This document shows positions 38,872 through 61,377 of a stretch of DNA of 64,000 nucleotides, piece by piece. A program made the position numbers and the translations under genes. How positions within the stretch are numbered: the first letter of the stretch is position 1; every line of letters starts with the position of its first letter. The stretch spans positions 124,001 through 188,000 of the forward strand of contig NZ_JYIJ01000012.1 of assembly GCF_001543895.1 (NCBI RefSeq), given 5' to 3'. The DNA is from Carbonactinospora thermoautotrophica. Lineage in GTDB: Bacteria; Actinomycetota; Actinomycetes; Streptomycetales; Carbonactinosporaceae. Under the pieces are notes generated by a model. The model was not told the DNA's origin, ran no database searches, and was given only the letters and a program-made list of their open reading frames with translations.

Positions 38872-39615
38872 GTGCCAGAGTGCATCGCCTTGCTCGTCAC
38901 GGCCATGGGGGGCGGACTGTGTCTCGGCCTGCTGGGGGTACACCGCGCCTTGCGCCGCGCCGGCGACGCTGCGCGCCGTGCGGAGCTGCTGGCCGCCCAG
39001 CTCTCCCGCATCCACCAGGAACTCGCCGACACGCTGCTCGCACAGCGCCGGTTGACCGACTACCTGGCCGACCTCAGCCTGCGGGACGCGCTCACCGGCC
39101 TGCACAACCGCCGGCACTTCGAGGGCGAGCACAACCGCCTGTTCGCCCTCGCGCTCGCCCTCGGCCAGCCGCTGTGCCTGGCAGTGGCCGACGTGGACGA
39201 CTTCAAATCCATCAACGACCGGTTCGGGCACGCGGTCGGCGACGAGGTACTGCGGGTGATCGGCCAGCTGTTCGACACCAACTCCCGCGAGCGGGACGTC
39301 CTCGCCCGGTACGGCGGGGAGGAGTTCGCCCTGCTCATGCCCGCCACCACGACCCGCTCGGCCGCCCTGGCCTGCGATCGGATCCGGCGCAAGGTGGAGA
39401 ACTACCCCTGGGATCGGCTGCGGGCCGGGCTGAAGGTCACCGTCAGCGTGGGCGTGGCCGACAACCGCAACCGCGCCGCCCCGGACGAACAGTTCCGCGC
39501 CGCCGACGACCTGCTGTACCTGGCCAAGCGGCTCGGCAAGAACCAGGTCCGCGCGGCCGACGAGCCCGAGGCCACCCTCCTCCACCGCGCCGGCCAAGCC
39601 GCGCGGAGCGAGTAG
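38872..39615 (+). CDS. Membrane-anchored diguanylate cyclase (GGDEF)
   Basis: The 247-aa protein has one N-terminal transmembrane helix (about 4-24), a coiled-coil linker (about 28-65) and one GGDEF domain. The active-site motif is GGEEF at 148-152. An RERD inhibitory site (139-142) lies exactly five residues before it, so both catalysis and product inhibition by c-di-GMP look intact. It makes c-di-GMP, the ligand of BldD, whose gene is in the same window. The start is a GTG at 38872. No sensory domain is seen besides the helix. Confidence 0.9.
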   Translation: MPECIALLVTAMGGGLCLGLLGVHRALRRAGDAARRAELLAAQLSRIHQELADTLLAQRRLTDYLADLSLRDALTGLHNRRHFEGEHNRLFALALALGQPLCLAVADVDDFKSINDRFGHAVGDEVLRVIGQLFDTNSRERDVLARYGGEEFALLMPATTTRSAALACDRIRRKVENYPWDRLRAGLKVTVSVGVADNRNRAAPDEQFRAADDLLYLAKRLGKNQVRAADEPEATLLHRAGQAARSE

Positions 39616-39662
39616 ACCCGCGCCGAATTCTTCCCCCACCCCCTGGGTGGACCAGGTACTGG

Positions 39663-59832: not shown

Positions 59833-59833
<1 letters not shown>
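58862..59833 (-). CDS. pyrB: Aspartate carbamoyltransferase catalytic chain
   Basis: The 323-aa enzyme joins carbamoyl phosphate and aspartate. It has the carbamoyl phosphate site [13 protein letters not shown] (STRTR at 53-57) and HPTQALLD. No pyrI regulatory gene is present. The start overlaps the pyrR stop as TGATG. Confidence 0.97.
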
Positions 59834-60510
<677 letters not shown>

Positions 60511-60711
60511 ACGTCAGGGTCGGCTCTACGTTACCAGCGGTTTCCCCTGGGCAGTCAGGGAGCCGGGCGAGGATCTTGAGCGTGACTACGCTCCGAAAAG
60601 ATAATAATCACAAGAATCGGCATGCCACAGAAAATTTATTGCGAAGAACATACTGATCGAACGAAAATCACTGGCGGATCGCGGTATCTCTGGCACAGCT
60701 TGACGCCATCT

Positions 60712-60741
60712 GTTACGCTGCGTAGCGTTACGAAGAGTAAC
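60712..60741 (+). promoter_or_regulatory. Two abutting BldD-box-like sites upstream of bldD
   Basis: GTTACGCTGCGTAGC (60712-60726) and GTTACGAAGAGTAAC (60727-60741) each match the BldD consensus NTNACNC(A/T)GNGTNAN at all but one defined position. BldD of Streptomyces represses its own promoter through such boxes. Here they lie 136-165 bp before the bldD start, in a stretch visibly poorer in GC than the surroundings. Confidence 0.65.
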
Positions 60742-60876: not shown

Positions 60877-61377
60877 ATGGCAGCCAGTGAATACGCGAAA
60901 GCTCTGGGCGCTCGCCTGCGGGCGATCCGTACCCAGCAAGGCCTGTCTCTGCACGGTGTCGAGGAGAAGTCCAACGGCAAGTGGAAGGCCGTCGTCGTCG
61001 GCTCGTACGAGCGGGGTGACCGTGCCGTCACGGTGCAGCGCCTCGCCGAGCTCGCCGATTTCTACGGCGTCCCGGTCCACGAGCTGCTCCCCGGCGGCAC
61101 CCCCAACGGCGCGGCCGAGCCGCCGCCCCGGCTGGTGATCAACCTGGAGAAGCTGCAGCAGGTCCCGACCGACAAGGCCGGCCCGCTCCTGCGCTACACC
61201 CAGACGATCCAAAGCCAGCGCGGCGACTACAACGGTAAGGTGCTCTCGATCCGCCAGGACGACCTGCGCACGCTCGCGGTCATCTACGACCAGTCGCCCA
61301 GCGTCCTGACCGAGCAGCTGATCAGCTGGGGCGTGCTGAACCCGGAGGCACGCGCCGCGGTGCAAAAGCAGCAGTAG
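60877..61377 (+). CDS. bldD: Developmental master regulator BldD
   Basis: The 166-aa protein has an N-terminal XRE helix-turn-helix (GARLRAIRTQQGLSLHGVEE then VVVGSYERGDRAVTV, about 11-75). The C-terminal domain carries the bipartite c-di-GMP motif RGD-x8-RQDD at residues 115-129. In Streptomyces, tetrameric c-di-GMP dimerises BldD, which then represses sporulation genes. All ligand residues are present, so this copy should respond to c-di-GMP. It is convergent with nusB. Confidence 0.97.
   Translation: MAASEYAKALGARLRAIRTQQGLSLHGVEEKSNGKWKAVVVGSYERGDRAVTVQRLAELADFYGVPVHELLPGGTPNGAAEPPPRLVINLEKLQQVPTDKAGPLLRYTQTIQSQRGDYNGKVLSIRQDDLRTLAVIYDQSPSVLTEQLISWGVLNPEARAAVQKQQ

Follow-up and report, generated by a model that had tools for sequence, protein, structure and literature searches.

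Do the two BldD-box-like sites that lie end to end upstream of bldD in the window, by which term we mean the whole 64-kb stretch of DNA analysed, constitute a genuine operator of that gene, and what might be the consequence of there being two of them? We scored the boxes against the consensus NTNACNCWGNGTNAN, which motif has nine specified positions and can be written in a 13-bp form as TNACN5GTNA. Box 1, the upstream site (60712..60726, + strand; GTTACGCTGCGTAGC), matches at eight of the nine positions, A14 being here a G; box 2, the downstream site (60727..60741, + strand; GTTACGAAGAGTAAC), likewise matches at eight, with an A instead of C7 but with all six of its arm letters in place. In the 13-bp form box 2 is complete and box 1 is one letter short. 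No nucleotide separates the two (60726/60727), so that the stretch from 60700 to 60741 reads, in order, TTGACG, CCATCT, GTTACGCTGCGTAGC and GTTACGAAGAGTAAC. The sequence-only reading, which had described two abutting 15-bp sites with one mismatch each upstream of bldD, was thus correct in each of those particulars, the gene included. Besides the pair, just one more site scoring 8/9 was found within the window.

The gene in question (60877..61377, + strand) encodes a protein of 166 aa that scores 301.6 bits against the equivalog model NF050110, whose cut-off is 250. Both c-di-GMP-binding motifs, RxD and RxxD, are intact as RGD and RQDD, and the C-terminal domain matches the solved chains 5khd and 4oaz, which we take, in part from PMC4151990, to be BldD domains. 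Genes for six GGDEF proteins are present in the genome, which complement, together with the intact BldD, counts in favor of an autorepression linked to c-di-GMP; a GGDEF diguanylate cyclase (YGGEEF) is present in the window itself, at approximately 38874-39616 (+), about 21 kb from bldD. The divergent neighbor is pyrR (59833..60465, - strand; NF003547, 303 bits), an arrangement found in all 44 of the loci checked. In the pyrR leader a PyrR-binding RNA element was matched at 60441-60514 (-) with 31 bits (RF00515), below the gathering score of 54, and CCTTCCCCGCCTCACAGGACGGG-like text occurs upstream of pyrR in other families as well. Between that leader and the bldD -35, the segment 60596-60690 is AT-rich (44-49% GC against about 70% in the surroundings) and contains additional sigma70-like matches on both strands; the segment may represent either an UP element or the promoter of pyrR. 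No structured leader was seen in the 5' UTR of bldD (z = +0.42).

The pair overlaps the predicted core promoter of bldD. A predicted -35 hexamer, TTGACG (60700..60705, +), is followed after a 17-nt spacer by a predicted -10 hexamer, TAGCGT (60723..60728, +), which straddles the junction of the boxes and draws its T12-A13 from box 1 and the T2 from box 2. Box 1 would accordingly occupy the spacer, and box 2 the end of the -10 along with the predicted start site, which placement bears out the earlier suggestion that the sites are positioned for autorepression. TAGCGT is weak when compared with TATAAT, and a generic promoter scan favored other hexamers in the region; the predicted -35/-10 register, for its part, is conserved among the relatives described below, and in the other families TTGAC is kept in most of the tandem and downstream-only promoters.

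Within the Streptomycetaceae the conservation was complete: in each of the 80 named loci the two boxes touch without a gap and retain all 12 of their arm letters, a TTG starts 12 or 13 nt ahead of box 1, and A14 of box 1 is kept, the usual tandem being ATTACGCTGCGTAAC immediately followed by CTCACAGTGAGTTAC. Since the window has an abutting pair in the same register, and since its locus groups accordingly in a tree of BldD and PyrR, we regard its operator as orthologous to that of Streptomyces, in which genus the corresponding box 2 likewise departs from the consensus at position 7. When the genomes of 60 relatives were scanned in full, the tandem turned up at bldD in those 46 Streptomycetaceae that match the exact pattern; at all other places in the 60 genomes it was about as frequent as its reversed control, barring one simple-repeat array (G010). 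None other of the 60 relatives bears the family code of the window's genome, whose order also includes the Streptomycetaceae. In the 5.13-Mb genome of the window the tandem pattern, relaxed at position 14 of box 1, occurs once, and the reversed control not at all. Strict 9/9 boxes are found at nine other sites in that genome, compared with three in the control, and none of the nine clearly adjoins a known BldD target or a developmental gene.

We then surveyed the class through the upstream sequences of 98 bldD genes, which represent 30 family codes. The abutting tandem appears in eight families beyond the Streptomycetaceae (f10, f11, f15, f22, f26, f29, f30, and f43), so that both boxes are conserved in related genera, a check that the sequence-only reading had itself proposed. 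Both boxes are present in 33 sequences from 10 families, the downstream box alone in 40 sequences from 11 families, and the upstream box alone in 11 sequences from seven families, while 14 of the 98 were left unassigned. One-box promoters were assigned by their offset to a TTG(A/C) motif, which assignment is weak in the single cases of f8, f20, and f34; in the families concerned the box keeps to one of two offsets from TTGAC, -12/-13 (the upstream register) or -27 (the downstream register). When weighted by family, the spacing of 15 scored 9.8, as against a mean of 0.002 and a maximum of 0.2 in the randomized sequence; the spacing of 10 also scored 6.4, because the arms of a box themselves recur every 10 bp. 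The centers of box 2 vary from family to family (AGTGA, GAAGA, CCAGC, TCTAA) with the palindromic arms being kept, as would be expected if a dimer reads that box. Two deviations deserve mention on their own account: in family f20 (L198-L205 except L204) bldD is present although its promoters lack a clear BldD box in the expected register, a degenerate ACTACTATCGGTAAC being left; and in L204, of family f48, a single additional base parts the two boxes (GCAACTCTGGGTAAC c ATTACTCTGCGTGTT), which near-tandem represents a naturally occurring variant of the spacing. With such conservation across relatives, the remaining doubt that the tandem is real disappears, and 60712-60741 is very probably a genuine, conserved bldD operator: a conserved switch for self-regulation rather than a coincidence.

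On an unrooted tree of BldD plus PyrR from 44 loci, the tandem state required 8 changes over the 44 tips, compared with a mean of 13.7 upon shuffling; box 1 required six against 14.9, and box 2 six against 7.5. The tandem and box 1 are clustered but patchy, whereas for box 2 the improvement over the shuffled trees is not clear. The lineage of the window falls within a 96/95 clade along with the Streptomycetaceae and the family f3, whose bldD promoters have one box only, in either register.

We consider it likely, then, that the pair is the operator through which bldD represses itself, consisting of two boxes placed end to end whose junction forms the -10 element. That interpretation is based on the sequence, on the register relative to the predicted -35 and -10, on the conservation, and on the BldD-type spacing of the arms. 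In Streptomyces coelicolor the orthologous gene (SCO1489) is repressed by its own product, with the BldD sites being at the -10 region (PMC5650626), as they are here; relative to that promoter the window has the change of A14 to G in box 1 and GTTACGAAGAGTAAC as its box 2. The distance from the start of box 1 to the BldD match is 171 nt in the window, toward the upper limit of the 49-184 nt seen in the Streptomycetaceae. Under the proposed scheme, dimers of BldD-(c-di-GMP) would sit on box 1 in the spacer, on box 2 over the end of the -10 and the predicted start site, or on both, and once bound would exclude RNA polymerase from the promoter, either complex being expected to block; in that manner, as long as c-di-GMP is abundant, BldD would restrain its own production. 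For the present organism we infer the binding of BldD, the simultaneous occupancy of both boxes, and the steric nature of the repression. Against the scheme as a whole stand the mismatch in each box, the weakness of the -10, the strict boxes elsewhere in the genome with no clear BldD targets beside them, and the one-box promoters of many families, which demonstrate that two boxes are not required.

In the published complex four c-di-GMP molecules link the subunits of a single BldD dimer, and the crystals held that complex 1:1 on a one-box 21-mer (PMC4151990); on DNA there is one dimer per box, with the C-terminal domains flexibly tethered by linkers. The notion of a c-di-GMP-linked dimer of dimers, which the earlier reading had suggested the doubled site could fit, is thus unfounded, although the doubled site could load two BldD complexes. 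With an offset of 15 bp, or some 1.4 turns, two dimers would lie on roughly opposite faces of the helix, in which geometry a co-occupancy without contact between the dimers is plausible.

A further proposal of the earlier reading, compatible with an autorepression operator, is that the two sites work as a cooperative switch in which contacts between the dimers make the autorepression steep. Throughout the Streptomycetaceae, and in the remaining tandem families too, the abutment is strictly invariant, which speaks in favor; but the same abutment is accounted for, at least in part and more simply, by the predicted -10 element that the boxes share and that the earlier reading had overlooked. The TAnnnT pattern in the -10 register is found in 29 of the 33 tandem promoters, and in 39 of the 40 with the downstream box only, but in no more than 6 of the 11 with the upstream box only; and an A at position 13, which the BldD consensus leaves free, is kept in 31 of the 33 tandems. 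Moreover, the literature examined reports no BldD tetramer, and dyads 15 bp apart would face roughly opposite sides of the helix, so that we consider a cooperative switch rather unlikely.

To a similar degree we doubt that only one box is functional in the window, a situation in which box 2, with its perfect arms, would probably be the active one and box 1 would be decaying, held in part by the -10. The loss of A14 from box 1, a letter otherwise kept throughout the Streptomycetaceae, with the T and A of the -10 staying in place, fits such a decay, and the class has many promoters that carry the downstream box alone. Nevertheless, box 1 retains five of its six arm letters along with a conserved CTGCGT core that is mostly dispensable for the -10, and a box 1 of the GTAGC type is also present in tandems of f10 and f22.

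Still less probable to us is that the repeats are an operator of MtrA, or one common to MtrA and BldD, with MtrA competing at the -10. That MtrA can touch these arms had escaped the earlier reading. Since GTNAC is self-complementary, the arms of a BldD box can also be read as a 10-bp direct repeat, and the MtrA sites of Streptomyces do have GTNAC-like arms and overlap the BldD sites at both bldD and bldM. In S. coelicolor MtrA represses bldD and protects its promoter between -28 and -4, a stretch that overlaps the BldD sites (PMC5650626), which footprint over the -10 and the BldD sites agrees with a layout of boxes anchored on the -10; the 'bldD-a' site of that species, one nucleotide shorter than other MtrA sites, would appear to correspond to box 1. 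In S. avermitilis, too, MtrA binds and represses bldD, and the present genome encodes an MtrA (398.5 bits; cut-off, 300). The repeats of MtrA, however, normally lie one nucleotide further apart than the arms in the surveyed promoters: the BldD form, GTNAC-N5-GTNAC, is present in 19.7 of the 30 families and the normal MtrA form, with N6 between the 5-mers, in none of the 30, only the atypical N5 form being found. In S. venezuelae the bldD promoter was neither recovered in MtrA ChIP nor bound by MtrA, and the central half-site that MtrA requires in S. coelicolor is altered in the window (GTAGCG). On the strength of the arm spacing and the S. venezuelae data we reject MtrA as the chief source of selection on the site; the protein may act at bldD as a partner in particular lineages, but the conserved pattern is not explained by it. 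As to a chance resemblance within an AT-richer promoter region, the consensus is admittedly loose, and its looser core, expected 3.3 times per window, was found twice, but the recurrence of an equally good tandem in only 7 of 20,000 Markov-randomized copies of the 700 nt upstream of bldD, together with the conservation at the family level, refutes that explanation, to which we assign a negligible probability.

Returning to the autorepression operator, the window's example is an ordinary member of a known loop, the autorepression of bldD having been established already. The single-box BldD targets bldM, whiG, and sspA have a TNACN5GTNA box like those seen here, which in sspA lies over the -10; but those published examples contain one box, whereas the bldD promoter contains two that abut and share the -10. 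Tandem autoregulatory operators are familiar from the XRE-family C proteins such as C.Esp1396I, whose helix-turn-helix dimers bind adjacent palindromes at their own promoter, first activating and then repressing with the aid of contacts between dimers. To our knowledge, no such contact has been described for BldD. Of the class-wide tandem layout anchored on the -10 we found no description in the searchable literature, whose coverage leaves out the two founding BldD papers (1999, 2010). We propose tentatively, as a possibility that we hold to be less likely than not, that bldD has a mosaic core promoter throughout the Actinomycetes as a class, its -10 being built where the ends of two boxes meet, of which boxes the different lineages have kept both, the upstream one only, or the downstream one only, and that the number of boxes tunes the steepness with which c-di-GMP controls the level of its own receptor.

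BldD couples c-di-GMP to the decision between growth and sporulation and governs some 150-170 transcription units in Streptomyces, so that the setting of its own level bears on every one of its targets. Nature has supplied a series of bldD promoters, all in a fixed register, with two boxes, with the upstream one alone, or with the downstream one alone; through it the effect of operator number becomes directly testable within a single reporter strain, and the same series also helps to separate the input of BldD from that of MtrA at the DNA that they share.
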